Assembly (NCBI RefSeq): GCF_009848685.1 | Contig: NZ_WXTX01000006.1 | Location: 62,001 to 126,000, forward strand | DNA: 64,000 nt | From: Andreprevotia sp. IGB-42 | Lineage (GTDB): Bacteria > Pseudomonadota > Gammaproteobacteria > Burkholderiales > Chitinibacteraceae | Direction: 5' to 3' | Shown: piece after piece, positions 14,180-24,544 of the stretch | Layout of the letters: each line of letters starts with the position of its first letter | Position numbering within the stretch: the first letter of the stretch is position 1 | Translations under genes and position numbers: made by a program | The notes under the pieces: generated by a model | What the model was told of the DNA's origin: nothing | Seen by the model: only the letters and a program-made list of their open reading frames with translations | Databases searched by the model: none

Positions 14180-14187
14180 CTATCGAG
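14180..14187. repeat. Target-site duplication, left copy (CTATCGAG)
   Basis: Identical to the 8 bases at 15682-15689 directly outside the other end of the IS. Deleting one copy plus the IS restores the reading frame of the host lipoprotein gene. Confidence 0.9.
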
Positions 14188-14204
14188 TCGGGTCTGAATA
14201 ATTC
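14188..14204 (+). repeat. IS terminal inverted repeat, left end
   Basis: TCGGGTCTGAATAATTC, the outer 17 bases of the element; pairs with the right end with a single mismatch at position 12. Confidence 0.88.
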
Positions 14205-14209
14205 GTTTT

Positions 14210-15562
14210 TCACACCACCATGTTGGCTGAAGGCCGGTAAGGGGCCTGAGCATCATCCAGCAACTGGTAATAAGCCAACCCGATCAGGGCGCAAAGAAGC
14301 CGCAGCTTCTTCAGAATCAACCGTAGGTTGTGTCCGCAACCGCACAGCAGGGCGTGGAAGGCATCGCCTTCCGCGCCTTTCAGCCAGTTCCGCCGCAGCC
14401 TGCCGTCGTTTTTCATGTGGCCGATGACGGGTTCGATGGCGCTGCGCCTCTTGATGTCCCGTTTCAAGCGGGTGGTGATGCCCCGCTTCAGATTCCGGTG
14501 ATAAACCTTGATGTCGTTCGGTGCCGAATGACCGCGATAACCCAGATCCACAAACACTTCCTTCGGCCGGCGACTGGTCAGAATTTCCAGCTGCTCCAGT
14601 GCTTCGTGCAGCGTATGACCGTCATACGGATCGCCTGGCAGACTGCGCATGCCGACCACCGGTCCTTCCTTGTGGGTGGTGGCCACCGAGACTTTGACGC
14701 CAAATTCATAGGGCTGGCGGGCCTTGCCTTTGCTGATGCATTCCACTTCGGGGGCATGCAGGCTGTACAGCTTGTTCTTGTCCTTCTTCTGCTGGGTGAG
14801 CAAGCGCTCGACCTTGTGCAGCAGTTCGCGACTCTTGTCATGCAGTGCGGCAGGAATGCGCTCCACCTGGCGTGAGACATCGCGCCACACTCGGCCGACC
14901 AGGGTTTTCAGCTTCTTCAGGCTGCTGCGCATCCGCTTGTACTGTTTGGCGTGCGCGTAGCGACCAATCTGGCCGGCCAGCTTCGGGGCTTCGCGGTTGT
15001 AATTCTGTCGCAGCGTCAATCCGGCTTCCGTCGCCAGCTTCACCAGCTGCTCGCGCCCGCAATTGAGCAGGCGGCTGTCAGTCGGATGCGCAATGGCTTT
15101 TTCCTGCACGGTGCTGTCGACAATCACTTTGTCGAAACTCTGACGTTTGACGATACCGGTGGATTCCGCGGCGCGGATCGTTTGTGTGAGCAGCCATTCC
15201 AAGCCTTCTTCACCAATCCGCTGGCGCCAGCGGGTCAGCGAACTGGGATCAATCGGCGGCTGGTGCTGGAACCAGGTTTCGCCGCAGAACAGTTGCCAGT
15301 AGGGATTCTCCACCCAGCCCCAGACCACATCCTCATCCGACAGGTCAAAGGTGTGCTGCAGATAAAGCAGGCCAGCAATCAGCCTTGGGGGTAGCGCTGG
15401 CCGGCCACGCTGAGAAGGAAACAGGCCCGCCCACTCCCGCTCGAACACCGCCCAGTCGATGTGCTCCGCCAGTTTGACCAGCGGATGGCGAAGATTGACC
15501 AGCTCATCCAGACGCTGGCGAAACAGATCGTTGGACTTGGGTATCAGTGGCTTGGGACCCAT
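14210..15562 (-). CDS. DDE transposase of the insertion sequence (DUF772 + DDE_Tnp_1 type)
   Basis: 450 residues from the ATG that has a GAGG site upstream; a TTG seven codons earlier is the alternative. The N-terminal part (LPPRLIAGLLYLQHTFDLSD..) is the DUF772 DNA-binding region of IS5/IS1182 transposases. The DDE catalytic triad is visible: Asp in VIVDSTV, Asp in VFVDLGYRGH and Glu in AIEPVIGHMK, the last with the R-x3-E-x6-K spacing of the family. No frameshift or stop interrupts it, so it may be active. The gene ends 22 bp inside the left terminal repeat. Confidence 0.93.
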   Translation of the reverse strand: MGPKPLIPKSNDLFRQRLDELVNLRHPLVKLAEHIDWAVFEREWAGLFPSQRGRPALPPRLIAGLLYLQHTFDLSDEDVVWGWVENPYWQLFCGETWFQHQPPIDPSSLTRWRQRIGEEGLEWLLTQTIRAAESTGIVKRQSFDKVIVDSTVQEKAIAHPTDSRLLNCGREQLVKLATEAGLTLRQNYNREAPKLAGQIGRYAHAKQYKRMRSSLKKLKTLVGRVWRDVSRQVERIPAALHDKSRELLHKVERLLTQQKKDKNKLYSLHAPEVECISKGKARQPYEFGVKVSVATTHKEGPVVGMRSLPGDPYDGHTLHEALEQLEILTSRRPKEVFVDLGYRGHSAPNDIKVYHRNLKRGITTRLKRDIKRRSAIEPVIGHMKNDGRLRRNWLKGAEGDAFHALLCGCGHNLRLILKKLRLLCALIGLAYYQLLDDAQAPYRPSANMVV

Positions 15563-15664
15563 GCTGGCCTCGGAAATTTGCAAGGAATCGCAGCCATTTT
15601 AATGAAAACTTGCAAATTCATGAGTGGGGTGTGGCTGGATTTTTCATATAAATCAGTCGGATAT

Positions 15665-15681
15665 GAATTGTTCAGACCCGA
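15665..15681 (-). repeat. IS terminal inverted repeat, right end
   Basis: Read on the minus strand this is TCGGGTCTGAACAATTC, the partner of the left end. Confidence 0.88.
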
Positions 15682-15689
15682 CTATCGAG
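15682..15689. repeat. Target-site duplication, right copy (CTATCGAG)
   Basis: Second copy of the 8-bp direct repeat generated by the IS insertion. Confidence 0.9.
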
Positions 15690-18450: not shown

Positions 18451-19260
18451 TTAAGCTCCGAATAGCCGTTTCCAGAACGGGGCCTTCTCCGCTTCGATGA
18501 AGCGCAGCGGCTTTTCTTCACCCAGAAAGCGGGCAACGACGTCCTTGTAGGCTTCGGATACATCGGTGCTGGCCAGGTGGATGGCCGGTGTGCCCGCATT
18601 GGACGCCTGCAGCACGGTTTCCGATTCCGGTATCACGCCGATCAGCGGGATGCGCAGCAGGTGCTGTACGTCATCCAGCGACAGCATCTCACCCGAATCC
18701 ACCCGTTTGGGGCTGTAGCGGGTGATCAGCAGGTGCGTCTTCACCGCCAGACCTTCTTCGGCCTTGCGCGATTTGGCATCCAGGATGCCGATGATGCGGT
18801 CGGAATCGCGTACCGAGCTCACTTCCGGGTTGGTGACGATCAGCGCTTCCTCGGCAAAATAAGCGGCCATCAGTGCACCACTTTCGATGCCGGCCGGGCT
18901 GTCGCACACGATGTAGTCAAAGCCATCGTCAGCCAGTTCCTTGAGCACCTTTTCTACGCCTTCGCGCGTCAGCGCATCCTTGTCGCGCGTTTGCGATGCT
19001 GGCACGATGAACAGGTTGTCGCAGTTCTTGTCCTTGATCAGTGCCTGGCGCAGGCTGGCTTCGCCCTGGATCACGTTGATCAGGTCGTATACCACGCGGC
19101 GCTCGCAGCCCATGATGAGATCCAGGTTGCGCAGGCCCACGTCAAAATCGATGACGGCGGTCTTGAAGCCGCGCAAAGCCAGACCGGATGCAAAACTGGC
19201 GCTGGTGGTGGTTTTGCCCACACCGCCCTTGCCGGAGGTAACGACGATAATTTTTGCCAC
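18451..19260 (-). CDS. minD: Septum site-determining ATPase MinD
   Basis: 269 residues from a GTG start (VAKIIVVTSGKGGVGKTT), chosen because it matches the family N-terminus and has AAGGA upstream; the open frame to 19311 is not needed. Deviant Walker A KGGVGKTT, signature DFDVGLRNLD and switch DSPAGIE are present. The C-terminus ends in a short amphipathic membrane-targeting helix (FWKRLFGA). Recruits MinC to the membrane to block FtsZ away from mid-cell. Confidence 0.97.
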   Translation of the reverse strand: MAKIIVVTSGKGGVGKTTTSASFASGLALRGFKTAVIDFDVGLRNLDLIMGCERRVVYDLINVIQGEASLRQALIKDKNCDNLFIVPASQTRDKDALTREGVEKVLKELADDGFDYIVCDSPAGIESGALMAAYFAEEALIVTNPEVSSVRDSDRIIGILDAKSRKAEEGLAVKTHLLITRYSPKRVDSGEMLSLDDVQHLLRIPLIGVIPESETVLQASNAGTPAIHLASTDVSEAYKDVVARFLGEEKPLRFIEAEKAPFWKRLFGA

Positions 19261-19378
19261 GTTTGATGTCCTTCGTCGAATAGCGTTATTCAGTTTTCGT
19301 GTCGATTGCACGCCAGTGCGGCAATCACCACCATGCGCAGCACGCCGGCATGGCAGCTGATATGGGGTGGTGCGCGGC

Positions 19379-20086
19379 CTAGCCGCTGAGCGCCTCGATC
19401 ACCAGCTTGTCTTGGTCCAGGTAAACCTGCGCTGCGCGCTCGCGGATCGCCACCGGCAGCGTTTCGTCCAGCGAGCGATAGATGCCCGCCACCGAAACGA
19501 GCTCGGCTTCCATGCAGGTGGTATAGACACGCGCGGTGGTATCGCCGCGTGCGCCGGCCAGGGCTCGCCCGCGTAGTGGCGCATAAACATGGATATTGCC
19601 GTCCGCGATCACTTCCGCGCCGGCCGAAACCAGCGCCAGCACCACCAGATCGCCGCCCTTGGCGTACACCTGCTGGCCGGTACGCACCGGTCGGGTGACC
19701 ACCATGGCGGGCACCCGCACTTCTGCAGCCTTGCTGACGGGGGCGGGCGGCGTCACGCCGTCTTCATGCAGGATGATCAACCCGGCTTCGCGCGCGGCTG
19801 CACGCTGATCCGGGTTGCCGCCGCGTGCTGCCACGGGTTTGAGCTGATACTGGCGCAGCATCTGCACCAGTGCGGCCACTTCCACTGCGGCAGGCAGGTC
19901 AGGCAGGCTATCGAAATCGATGGCAAGCTGCTCGCCGGACAACATGTGCTCGCCACTGCCCAATTGCTCGCGCAGCGCGCTTTCCAGCTTCACCGGGTCC
20001 AGCGTGGCGGGAACAAAGGTCAGCAGCTTCAGGCCAACGCTGCGGAATTCAAAAGCAGAAGCGGGATCGGGGAAACGCTGGGACAT
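19379..20086 (-). CDS. minC: Septum site-determining protein MinC (FtsZ inhibitor)
   Basis: 235 residues from the ATG giving MSQRFPDPAS. The N-terminal FtsZ-inhibiting domain (AFEFRSVGLKLLTF..) and the C-terminal beta-helix with its repeats (GQQVYAKGGDLVVLALVSAGAEV.., GNIHVYAPLRGRALAG) are typical. The middle has a short Ala/Pro linker. First gene of the minCDE operon; the gap to minD is 118 bases, longer than usual. Confidence 0.95.
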   Translation of the reverse strand: MSQRFPDPASAFEFRSVGLKLLTFVPATLDPVKLESALREQLGSGEHMLSGEQLAIDFDSLPDLPAAVEVAALVQMLRQYQLKPVAARGGNPDQRAAAREAGLIILHEDGVTPPAPVSKAAEVRVPAMVVTRPVRTGQQVYAKGGDLVVLALVSAGAEVIADGNIHVYAPLRGRALAGARGDTTARVYTTCMEAELVSVAGIYRSLDETLPVAIRERAAQVYLDQDKLVIEALSG

Positions 20087-20185
20087 AGTAGCCGGAAACA
20101 ATTTATTGCCCGCGAGTTTACCGTGTCGGTCCTGTGGGTGAAAGCCGATTTATTCATGCCGGCAAAGCAGCGCCAAAACGCACTG

Positions 20186-21004
20186 TCAGTGGATGCGCCG
20201 CTTCAATCCGGCATTGAGCAGGATATTGGTGGCCAGCTCTTCGATCGACAATTTGGTGGTATTGAGAAAAACAATGCCCAGCTGGCGCATCAGGTTTTCC
20301 GCCTCCGTCACTTCGTGCTGGCACGCGGCCAGCGTGGCGTACTGGCTGCCGGGCTTGCGTGATTCGCGGATCACGGTCAGCCGTTCAGGCTCGATGGTCA
20401 GTCCGAACAGCTTGGTGCGATGCGGATGCAGCGGTTTGGGCAAGGTGTGACGATCGAAGTCCTCCGGTGCCAACGGGTAATTGGCAGCCTTGATGCCGTA
20501 TTGCAGCGCCAGATACAGGCAGGCGGGCGTTTTACCCGCGCGGGATACGCCTACCAGAATGATATCGGCCTCGGCCAGGTTCTTTGCCATGCTGCCGTCA
20601 TCATGACTCATCGCATACTGGATGGCATCGATGCGGTTCTTGTATTCCTCGAAACTGGCAATGCCATGCACCTTGCCGGCCAGATGCGTTGAACCCAGCC
20701 CCAATTCCTGTTCCATCGGGCCGATGAAATGACCGAAGAAATCCAGCACCAGTGCTTCGTCAATCTGGAACAGGCTGCGCAGATCCTCGTCGATCAGTGT
20801 GGAAAACACCATGGGCCGGCAGCCGTCAATGCGTGCTTGCTCGCGGATCTGCGCAACGGCAGCATGTGCTTTTTCACGGGTATCGATGTAGGGCAGGGTG
20901 ATGCGGCGGAAATCCACCCCCTCGAACTGCACAGTCAGGCTGTGGCCCAGCATCTCTGCGGTGATGGCGGTACGGGCGGAAACGAAAAAGGCGGTGCGGG
21001 GCAT
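20186..21004 (-). CDS. PEP synthase regulatory kinase/pyrophosphorylase-like protein, diverged copy
   Basis: 272 residues, DUF299 family: bifunctional ADP-dependent kinase and Pi-dependent phosphorylase that switches PEP synthase off and on. The P-loop GVSRAGKTP is at residues 152-160. However, the conserved SDxT signature near the N-terminus reads S-A-R-T (Ala at residue 10 where the neighbour and the E. coli protein have Asp). It is a tandem paralogue of the next gene, with seven bases between them, the same length and alignable without gaps over the first 160 residues. Whether it still regulates PEP synthase, or acts on another dikinase, cannot be told. Confidence 0.85.
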   Translation of the reverse strand: MPRTAFFVSARTAITAEMLGHSLTVQFEGVDFRRITLPYIDTREKAHAAVAQIREQARIDGCRPMVFSTLIDEDLRSLFQIDEALVLDFFGHFIGPMEQELGLGSTHLAGKVHGIASFEEYKNRIDAIQYAMSHDDGSMAKNLAEADIILVGVSRAGKTPACLYLALQYGIKAANYPLAPEDFDRHTLPKPLHPHRTKLFGLTIEPERLTVIRESRKPGSQYATLAACQHEVTEAENLMRQLGIVFLNTTKLSIEELATNILLNAGLKRRIH

Positions 21005-21011
21005 GGCCGGC

Positions 21012-21830
21012 CTAATAGGTACGGCGGGTCAGCCCGGCCGTATGCATGATGGAGGTGGCGAGCTCCTCGATGGAGCGGGTAGTCGAGCTCAAGTGCGGCA
21101 CGCCCACCTGGCGCATCAGTACCTCGGCCTCGGCCACTTCGTATTCGCAGTTGTCCAGCGCGGCGTATCGACTGCCCGGTTTCCGTTCCTCGCGGATCTG
21201 GTTCAGGCGCACCGGATCGATGGTCAGGCCGAACAGCTTGTTGCGGTAAGGCAGCAGCAGCTTGGGCAAGGTGTGGTTGCCGAAGTCTTCCGGCGTGAGC
21301 GGATAGTTGGCAGCCTTGATGCCGTACTGCAGCGCCAGGTACAGGCAGGTCGGCGTTTTGGCCGAGCGCGATACACCGACCAGGATGATGTCTGCGTCGT
21401 TCAGATCCCGCGGCATCACGCCATCGTCGTGCGCCAATGCAAAATTTACCGCATCGATACGGGTTTTGTATTCCTCGAAATTAACGATGCCATGCGATTT
21501 GCCCACGGTATGGCTGGATTCACGCCCCAGTGCCTTTTCCAGCGGGCCGATGAATATCTCGAAGAAATCCAGCGTCAGCGCTTCTTCCACCGCAATCAGC
21601 TTGCGCAGTTCTTCACCCACGATGGTGGAAAAAACCAGCGGCTGGCATTGGTCTTCCGCCGCCTGGCGACGGATTTGTTCGGCTACCTTCAGGGCTTTTT
21701 CCGGCGTATCGACATACGGCAGCGTTACGCGCCGGAAATTCACGTCCTCAAACTGCGTGATCAGGCTATGGCCGAGCATTTCGGCAGTAATGCCGGTACG
21801 ATCGGAAATGAAAAAGGCGGTGCGCGGCAC
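21012..21830 (-). CDS. ppsR: Phosphoenolpyruvate synthase regulatory protein (kinase/pyrophosphorylase)
   Basis: 272 residues, canonical DUF299 protein. It has the N-terminal [10 protein letters not shown] motif, P-loop GVSRSAKTP (152-160), HDDG block and the [11 protein letters not shown] segment conserved from E. coli. It phosphorylates a Thr next to the catalytic His of PEP synthase using ADP and reverses this with phosphate. Divergently placed from its target gene ppsA with 281 bases between, the usual arrangement. Confidence 0.94.
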
Positions 21831-22046
21831 GGGGCCTCCTGATTGTGCGCTTGCAATAATTGCCCAGCATATCCAGCCTGTGGGGCCAGCACGCTGCGGG
21901 AAATCCAGTATCCATTCGTTTTAGCCCAAAGAGTGGCGCGCAGCGCGGCGATCAGACTTGAACAGCGCCCACGCCGGATTGAAGTTGCATCATGCGGGAA
22001 AGCGGCTACGCGATTGTCCCGATTAAGCGTGTGGCCTTTGCTTGCC

Positions 22047-22052
22047 TAGAAT
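22047..22052 (+). promoter_or_regulatory. Possible -10 box of ppsA
   Basis: TAGAAT, 60 bases before the ppsA start; a TTAAGC 18 bases upstream is a poor -35. Weak prediction from base pattern only. Confidence 0.3.
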
Positions 22053-22111
22053 GGCTTATCGCGGCGCAACATGGCTGTGCCGCCCCATCTTCCTTTGCAA
22101 GGTTCCTGCCC

Positions 22112-24544
22112 ATGCCCACATCCCATCTCGACAGCACCGTGAACGCCGCCCGGAATGTGATCGACTTCGTTGAACTGCGCATGAGCGATGTCGAATCCGT
22201 TGGCGGCAAGAATGCTTCGCTGGGCGAAATGATTTCCCAGCTCGCCGCCAAAGGGGTACGCGTACCCGGTGGCTATGCCACTACGGCCAATGCCTATCGC
22301 ATTTTCCTGGCGCACAACAATCTGGCGCAGCGCATCGATGATGTACTGGCCACGCTGGATGTCGATGACGTGAAAGCGCTGGCGCAGGCCGGCAAGCTGA
22401 TTCGCGAGCAGATACTGGGCACGCCATTCCCGGCCGCGCTGGAGGCCGAAGTGCGTAGCCACTACGCAGCCTTGGGTGAGAACGTGACCGTGGCGGTGCG
22501 TTCGTCGGCAACGGCCGAGGATTTGCCGGATGCATCGTTCGCCGGCCAGCAGGAAACCTATCTGAACATCGTGGGCGCGGATAACGTGCTGGAAGCCATC
22601 AAGCATGTATTTGCATCGCTGTATAACGACCGCGCCATTTCCTACCGCGTGCACAAGGGCTTCGATCACAAGCTGGTGGCGTTATCGGCCGGCGTGCAGC
22701 GCATGGTGCGCTCCGATCTGGGCGCTGCCGGTGTGATGTTCAGCATCGATACCGAAACGGGTTTCGACCAAGTGGTGTTCGTGACTGCGAGCTACGGCCT
22801 GGGCGAAACCGTGGTGCAGGGTGCGGTTAACCCGGATGAATTCTATGTGCACAAGCCTACGCTGCAGGCTGGCCGCCCGGCGGTGGTGCGCAAGCACCTG
22901 GGAAGCAAGGCCATCAGGATGGAGTTCGATTTGCAAGCGTCTGCAGGCAAATCGGTCCGCACCGTGCCGGTTGGCGATGCCGAGCGCCGACAGTTTTCGA
23001 TCAGCGATGCCGAAGTGGAAGAGCTGGCGCGCTACGCACTGATCATCGAACAGCACTACGAGGGCGCGATGGACATCGAATGGGGCCGCGATGGCGTCGA
23101 CGGCAAGCTCTACATCCTGCAGGCGCGCCCGGAAACGGTGAAGTCGCAGGAAGCCGCCGCAGACAAGCTCAGCAAATTCCGCATGCTGGAGAAAGGTCAG
23201 TTGCTGAGCGAGGGCCGGGCTGTAGGCCAGAAAATCGGCGCCGGCACGGTGCGGGTGATCCGCGATGTATCCGAGATGGATCTGGTACAGCCAGGCGACG
23301 TGCTGGTATCCGACATGACTGATCCGGACTGGGAGCCGGTGATGAAGCGTGCCGCCGCCATCGTCACCAACCGTGGCGGGCGCACCTGCCATGCGGCCAT
23401 CATTGCGCGCGAACTGGGTATTCCTGCGGTGGTAGGCACCGGCGATGCCACCCGGGTGCTGGAAGACGGCATGGCCGTCACCGTATCGTGTGCCGAGGGC
23501 GATACCGGCAATATCTATGCTGGCATCCTCAAGTTCGAGAAAATGGAAGTCGCGCTGGCCACCATGCCGCCGTCGCCGGTCAAGCTGATGATGAATGTCG
23601 GCAATCCGGAGCTGGCATTCGAGTTTGCCCAGTTGCCGAACGAGGGCGTGGGCCTGGCGCGGCTGGAATTCATCATCAACCGCATGATCGGTGTGCACCC
23701 CAAGGCACTGCTTGCCTACCCGAACCTGGCGCCTGAACTCAAGGGTAAGGTGGAGGAGCGCATCGCCGGCTACCGTTCCGCGGTGGATTTCTACGTGGAT
23801 AAACTTGCCGAGGGCATTGCCACGCTGGGCGCGGCATTCTGGCCCAAGAAAGTGATCGTGCGGCTGTCCGACTTCAAATCCAACGAGTACGCCAACCTGA
23901 TCGGCGGCCCGGAATACGAGCCGCACGAGGAAAACCCGATGATCGGTTTCCGTGGTGCAGCGCGCTATGTGGACCCGGGCTTTCGCGATTGCTTCGAGCT
24001 GGAATGCCGCGCGGTGAAAAAGGTGCGCGACGTGATGGGGTTGACCAATGTGGAGGTGATGATTCCCTTCGTGCGGACCTTGGCCGAAGCCGCCAAGGTG
24101 ATCGAGCTGCTGGAAGCCAATGGCCTCAAGCGTGGTGCAGGCGGCCCGGACGGCAATGCGCCGCTACGCGTGATCATGATGTGCGAGATCCCTGCCAACG
24201 CGGTGCTGGCTGAGCAGTTCTTGCAGTATTTCGACGGCTTCTCGATCGGCTCCAACGACATGACGCAGCTCACGCTGGGCATAGACCGCGATTCCGGCGG
24301 CCCGGTATCGCTGAGCTTCGATGAGCGCAACGATGCGGTGAAGGCGATGCTGGCGATGTCGATTGCTGCCTGCCGCAAGCTCGGCAAGTATGTGGGCATC
24401 TGCGGGCAGGGCCCGTCGGATCACCCCGATTTTGCGCAGTGGCTGGTCGGGCAGGGGATAGAAACCATCTCGCTCAATCCGGATACCGTGGTGGAAACCT
24501 GGCTTTATCTGGCCGAAGAGGCGGGGAAAAAGACAGCGGGTTGA
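22112..24544 (+). CDS. ppsA: Phosphoenolpyruvate synthase
   Basis: Makes PEP from pyruvate and ATP (giving AMP and phosphate) for gluconeogenesis. 810 residues from the ATG before PTSHLDSTV. The nucleotide-binding domain ([35 protein letters not shown]), the phosphohistidine loop [20 protein letters not shown] and the C-terminal PEP/pyruvate barrel ([37 protein letters not shown] with catalytic Cys in ICGQ) all agree closely with the E. coli enzyme. It is divergent from its two putative regulatory proteins. Confidence 0.97.

Follow-up and report, generated by a model that had tools for sequence, protein, structure and literature searches.

A duplicated PEP synthase regulator with reciprocal changes in its two conserved loops in the Chitinibacteraceae

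Introduction

One of the closest described systems to the locus considered here is the PEP synthase regulator of E. coli, PpsR (also PSRP or YdiA; DUF299, PF03618), which belongs to the same family, is encoded in the same gene order, divergent from ppsA, and is reported to be bifunctional, acting on PpsA both as an ADP-dependent kinase and as a Pi-dependent pyrophosphorylase (PMC2817694). On a single threonine, DUF299 proteins carry out two reactions that oppose each other, and one protein has to strike the balance between them. E. coli PSRP is reported to elute as a tetramer (PMC2817694), the E. coli and Burkholderia PpsR proteins to self-interact (PMC10667639), and the PpsR family to form homodimers and tetramers (PMC2817694, PMC10667639). 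In maize, the regulatory protein PDRP is described as two domains of one fold with a P-loop in each, of which the C-terminal domain holds the active site and the N-terminal loop is proposed to be allosteric (PMC9138534).

Here, we analyse a locus of Andreprevotia sp. IGB-42, a member of the Chitinibacteraceae, in which two such regulator genes lie beside a single ppsA, and compare it with related genomes. Coordinates refer to the window, by which we mean the whole stretch of 64,000 nucleotides that was analysed (contig NZ_WXTX01000006.1, positions 62,001 to 126,000).

Two regulator genes beside one PEP synthase gene

The two regulator genes, each of 272 codons, lie on the reverse strand and are divergent from ppsA, the proximal copy (copy 1) at 21012..21830 and the distal copy (copy 2, PF03618) at 20186..21004, with the seven bases of 21005..21011 (−) between the proximal stop codon and the distal ATG; the open reading frames thus bear out the layout given in a preliminary description of this DNA. 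The proximal copy opens with a GTG start behind AGGAGG and, as inspection by eye shows no strong ribosome site for the distal copy itself, translational coupling of the two is likely. On the opposite strand, the ppsA frame spans 21992..24544 (+), its true start being likely the Met codon at 22112, and on that start the divergent intergenic region between ppsA and the regulator pair covers 21831..22111. Downstream of the regulators lies minC (19379..20101, −), which with minD serves as a synteny anchor: the order ppsA, ppsR, (ppsR2), minC, minD, spanning 18451-24544 in the window, is kept in all 41 Chitinibacteraceae genomes read for it, and the two regulator genes are adjacent and co-oriented in every one of the 13 pairs. 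Elsewhere in the window, an insertion sequence of about 1.5 kb (14186-15683) with 19-bp inverted repeats at its ends, 95% complementary, carries a transposase frame (14210-15583, −) with DUF772 and DDE domains.

The two proteins were said to align without gaps over at least their first 160 residues, and this extends to all 272 columns, with 177/272 residues identical (65%) and 101/160 in the first part. Both exceed the cut-off of 350 bits of the PpsR equivalog model NF049928 (proximal 393.8, distal 371.9). Searches of the genome (4.7 Mb in 52 contigs, rated 100% complete) found no PF03618 gene beyond these two and no second PPDK_N protein, which agrees with the single ppsA described before. 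The only PPDK_N protein found is a PEP synthase, at 1156.3 bits with TIGR01418 (cut-off 739.75), and reaches 127.7 bits with the PPDK model TIGR01828, below its cut-off of 843.45, so that no ppdK was found. We therefore rejected a second PPDK_N dikinase as a target of the distal copy, none having been found in the genome.

The motif GGRTCHAAI, in which we take the Thr to be the target and the His to be catalytic, is present in 41/41 PpsA of the family genomes read, and in all 41 the dikinase gene bearing this Thr-x-His motif adjoins the regulator gene or genes. Comparison of PpsA from owners of a regulator pair with PpsA from owners of a single regulator (13 against 25 rows, three g9 rows excluded) found no column that is nearly fixed for different letters on the two sides, with at most one exception per side.

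Each copy is altered in a different loop

The distal copy had been described as carrying Ala10 in place of the Asp of the SDxT signature while keeping its P-loop, and both observations are confirmed: residues 9-13 read SARTA instead of SDRTG, codon 10 being GCC (20975..20977, −) where most of the PpsR family has Asp, and the P-loop at residues 152-160 is an intact GVSRAGKTP, with GGT for the canonical Walker A Gly at codon 157 (20534..20536, −). The proximal copy keeps SDRTG and had been called canonical, which does not hold, since its P-loop reads GVSRSAKTP, with GCC for Ala at codon 157 (21360..21362, −), whereas the canonical loop is GVSRxGKTP, with Gly157 in all 57 aligned single-copy proteins (29 of these rows come from outside the family and are the best scoring among 61 such genomes that gave a match) and in PpsR of E. 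coli K-12. A canonical proximal copy is accordingly rejected, and the idea of an alteration in the second copy alone is not supported.

The same reciprocal changes recur in the other pairs of the family. We sampled 43 genomes of the window's GTDB family, two PpsR genes being present in 13 and a single one in 30. In 13/13 pairs, that of the window included, the proximal copy combines Asp10 with Ala157 and the distal copy combines Gly or Ala at position 10 (Gly in 10, Ala in three) with Gly157; because it is common to all 13 pairs, the pattern is more than chance. Among the 30 single-copy genomes, 24 have Asp10 with Gly157 and six, all of genus g6, have Gly10 with Gly157. Six of the 13 pairs were read again (Andreprevotia lacus, A. 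chitinilytica, Jeongeupia naejangsanensis, Chitiniphilus shinanonensis, C. eburneus and Amantichitinum ursilacus), from the same assemblies, which checks the reading and adds no genomes. On these alignments, the reciprocal divergence of a duplicated bifunctional regulator is real and conserved.

Of the 43 columns that are invariant in the 57 single-copy proteins, the proximal copies are changed at 157 only, in all 13, while changes in the distal copies affect five columns (46, 161, 198, 202 and 215), none of them in all 13. Glu215 is lost in 10/13 distal copies and invariant in 57/57 single-copy proteins; Gly13 is also lost in 7/13 distal copies. Asp10 itself is missing from all 13 distal copies and present in 51/57 single-copy proteins.

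A second set comprised 80 loci from named genomes and two further Chitinibacteraceae genomes, with some genomes common to the 57-row set; G039 and G041 enter in this reading only and are left out of the motif table, the alignment, the PpsA tree and the gene-order and target-motif counts. Residue 157 is Gly in 75 of its 76 single-copy frames and Cys in one, from a metagenome-assembled genome, with Ala157 in 0/76; Asp10 is present in 75/75 readable single-copy frames, a set found with patterns that include part of the SDxT region. The Cys belongs to a Marinobacter segnicrescens assembly (L173) whose single-copy PpsR reads GASRSCKTP, where a sequencing or binning error is possible. In a phylum sample of 398 genomes, a match to the DNA pattern of GVSRxGKTP is present in 108, and the pattern of GVSRxAKTP is matched in IGB-42 alone; with this genome set aside, the counts are 107/397 and 0/397, no other pair owner being in the sample; as the patterns miss some codon choices, these counts are lower bounds. 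In small GTPases, a Gly-to-Ala change immediately before the P-loop Lys blocks nucleotide binding. By the numbering of a 293-317 peptide, the altered Gly corresponds to Gly298 of maize PDRP1 (PMC6019023).

Loss of Asp10 has to be read alongside genus g6. A change of this residue was expected to be uncommon in single-copy proteins, and this holds in part: Gly10 does occur in six of them, but all are of that one genus. These loci (L040, L049, L057, L063, L066 and L069) carry a single-copy PpsR with Gly10, a normal P-loop and no partner gene. A shared origin of their Gly10 with the distal copies was rejected (AU p 0.0009), so the g6 change is a separate loss, and since these proteins carry Gly10 as single copies, losing Asp10 by itself does not necessarily put an end to regulation. 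Judged from the alignments, Asp10 alone may be dispensable.

Outside the family, one regulator gene is the rule. The preliminary description had stated that most genomes have one such gene for each dikinase, and single copies do prevail among the 306 genomes outside the Chitinibacteraceae that have a match in an order sample of 399; on our reading of the matches, one of the 306 has two full-length copies, which lie apart and are both canonical. Genome G762 was rejected as a parallel, its two copies being unlinked and canonical (L185 and L189, both full-length DUF299 genes, one beside a dikinase motif). Genomes G751, G516, G737 and G578 were rejected as well, their extra PF03618 matches being fragments or split genes. 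In G751 (L184, L193, L194), a canonical ppsR is followed within 1 kb by two extra matches to the last 46 profile positions, one of which has an internal TAG.

Structural setting of the two loops

AlphaFold2 models of the two copies have a mean pLDDT of 83.4 each and a pTM of 0.59. In both, a strand-loop-helix at residues 3-24 recurs at 148-169, such that residues 9-13 and 153-157 sit in equivalent loops, one per half, with less certainty for the first of them (block pLDDT 73 and 63). The best Foldseek match of the distal model, and its only one with E below 0.001, is maize PDRP with AMP (5d0n, E 4e-14); the two superpose with VIA-align at Z 17.0 over 239 residues with an rmsd of 10.5, and because of this rmsd the domain arrangement may differ from that in 5d0n. 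The C-terminal half of the distal model resembles P-loop kinases, in part-length matches to 3kb2 (Z 9.4, 119 residues) and to shikimate kinase 2iys (Z 8.6).

Constraint on the two copies

In nine within-genus comparisons (Nei-Gojobori, some with dS above 1), the proximal copy has dN/dS values of 0.004-0.091 and the distal copy values of 0.013-0.126, from which we take both to be under purifying selection, the distal under the weaker constraint in 9/9. Mean within-copy identity is 74% for distal and 85% for proximal copies. The difference is larger in the C-terminal domain: in the proximal copy, no other part of the two proteins is as conserved (mean p-distance 0.089, against 0.212 in its N-domain), and in the distal copy this domain is relaxed (0.257, with 0.273 in the N-domain). 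Distal-to-proximal ratios are 2.9 for the C-domain and 1.3 for the N-domain. The quotient of these two ratios has a bootstrap 95% range of 1.55-3.4, or 1.53-3.69 with one genome per genus.

Residues 152-160 of the P-loop except 156 and 157 show no difference among the 26 copies, nor does the DDG at 135-137, and as they are kept in 13/13 of both, neither copy is plainly dead. The notion of a dead proximal and a catalytic distal copy was considered and is weakened by domain rates that run in the reverse direction, the proximal C-domain being the most conserved and the distal one relaxed. The Ala157 site may, on this pattern of conservation, still work in an altered way.

Origin of the pair and probable dependence of Ala157 on the partner

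In a tree built without columns 10 and 157, the 13 distal copies group together as a single clade (100/99), from which one origin of the distal gene follows; this tree and the AU tests kept 12 of the 29 outside-family rows. The distal copies of g4 join those of g8 (99/97), a grouping that is absent from the PpsA tree (41 of the 43 family genomes), and the distal gene may therefore have moved between genera.

Three single-copy genomes, G003 and G013 (g2) and G023 (g4), bear on the history of Ala157. Their regulators, with Gly157 and no distal gene between ppsR and minC, group with the proximal copies of the g4 pair owners (97/98, in a tree with a long-branch warning for one g9 row; 94/96 without columns 10 and 157), and their PpsA groups with that of the g4 pair owners too (SH-aLRT 100). 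From this position it follows that either the distal copy was lost and Gly regained, or Ala157 arose twice in lineages bearing the distal gene; both scenarios fit a dependence of Ala157 on the distal copy. In AU tests, a clade of the 13 proximal copies alone has p 0.14, and one that also takes in the three singles has p 0.08; since the proximal-only clade is not rejected, a single origin of Ala157 without reversion, requiring one change, is possible.

Independent contrasts between Ala157 and the distal copy number only two, resting on two changes in the tree with the g9 long-branch warning, and are both concordant (sign test p 0.5). Ala157 without a distal copy occurs in 0/57 single-copy rows and 0/76 frames of the second set, and the family genomes read that have no partner gene all have Gly157. 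Ala157 thus likely depends on the presence of the distal copy, as far as comparison of sequences can tell.

What the pair may do

We propose that ppsR was duplicated within the Chitinibacteraceae and that the copies then underwent reciprocal specialisation. The proximal copy keeps the N-terminal loop SDRTG and has become fixed for Ala in place of the Walker A Gly in the P-loop of its C-terminal catalytic domain, and the distal copy keeps the C-terminal P-loop and has lost the Asp of the N-terminal loop (in 7/13 the Gly13 too). The two proteins would jointly control PpsA, in all likelihood as a hetero-oligomer with one intact copy of each loop, the ADP-dependent inactivation and Pi-dependent reactivation of PpsA being shared between unlike subunits. 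Because each copy has one intact loop, the family forms oligomers, the genes are adjacent and the one target is unchanged, unlike subunits working together is the simplest account. To this tentative reading, of a reciprocally specialised, interdependent and most likely hetero-oligomeric PpsR pair acting on one PpsA, we assign a probability of roughly 0.48. Its stricter form, in which PpsR of the Chitinibacteraceae would be an obligate heteromer, a single kinase/pyrophosphorylase split into two interdependent subunits with the P-loop change held by the partner, is more doubtful, though a possibility we take seriously.

Two one-way enzymes could leave a similar trace, each copy forming its own homo-oligomer and running mainly one reaction, with the kinase and phosphorylase set independently. 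The preliminary description had offered a one-way switch, through loss of one activity from the second copy, as one of two readings, the other being another target for that copy; the copies have indeed diverged at a functional motif, and maize PDRP2, reported to be nearly without Pi-dependent activation while keeping its kinase activity and intact catalytic residues, offers a one-way precedent (PMC6019023), but the second copy is not the only one altered. One precise substitution in an active site that is strictly conserved elsewhere looks like tuning rather than decay, and the frequent loss of Glu215 from distal copies would also suit such a division. We nevertheless consider it unlikely, as maize PDRP is described as running both reactions at one C-terminal site (review PMC9138534), both would be likely to suffer if the Walker A Gly were lost, and Asp10 alone is lost in the single-copy proteins of g6, where both activities are presumably still needed.

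The g6 proteins, in tolerating Gly10, are at the same time compatible with two bifunctional isoforms of shifted kinetics, whose changes would tune the affinity for ADP, Pi or AMP and either of which would suffice. Both copies score above the PpsR equivalog cut-off and keep the remaining residues of the catalytic region, as well as the positions of Burkholderia PpsR suppressors (T68, E97, G109 and Q167; PMC10667639), which, if the numbering is offset by one as it appears to be, are kept in 13/13 of both copies. Isoforms of this kind are hard to reconcile with strict reciprocity in 13/13 pairs and with the absence of Ala157 from the single-copy proteins read, and appear quite improbable. Least probable of all is that the distal copy has acquired a new target and regulates PpsA no more: its faster evolution (the 74% against 85% identity above) and relaxed C-domain would be expected of such a protein, yet no other PPDK_N protein was found in the genome, the distal gene stays at the ppsA locus in 13/13, its P-loop is conserved, and the proximal Ala157 would be left unexplained.

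Comparison with known regulators

The interest of the IGB-42 pair is that it places the two intact phosphate-binding loops on separate proteins, where single exact substitutions serve as handles. It therefore offers a way to assign each reaction to a loop and to see if the N-terminal one acts in trans, questions that assays of two small proteins, apart and together, with a single enzyme can address directly. In the open-licence literature, among the matches listed and the portions of text they provide, there is no description of a reciprocal PpsR pair.

Maize PDRP1 (PDB 5d0n, 5d1f) differs from the pair in acting on PPDK as a homodimer with an intact P-loop, GVSRTGKT. Maize PDRP2 and Arabidopsis RP2 are likewise duplicated regulators and are reported to be nearly one-way in vitro (PMC6019023). 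They differ in that no catalytic residue of maize PDRP2 is altered, dimer-stabilising cysteines being offered as the cause, and in that the sections of that paper available to us describe no reciprocal changes in PDRP2 or RP2 (PMC6019023). E. coli K-12 has a single PpsR gene in which both loops are intact (SDGTAITAE and GVSRCGKTP), whereas IGB-42 has two genes with one altered loop each; if the reading of unlike subunits acting together on PpsA is true, the pair would be a clear-cut example from bacteria of a homo-oligomer that has become two interdependent proteins.
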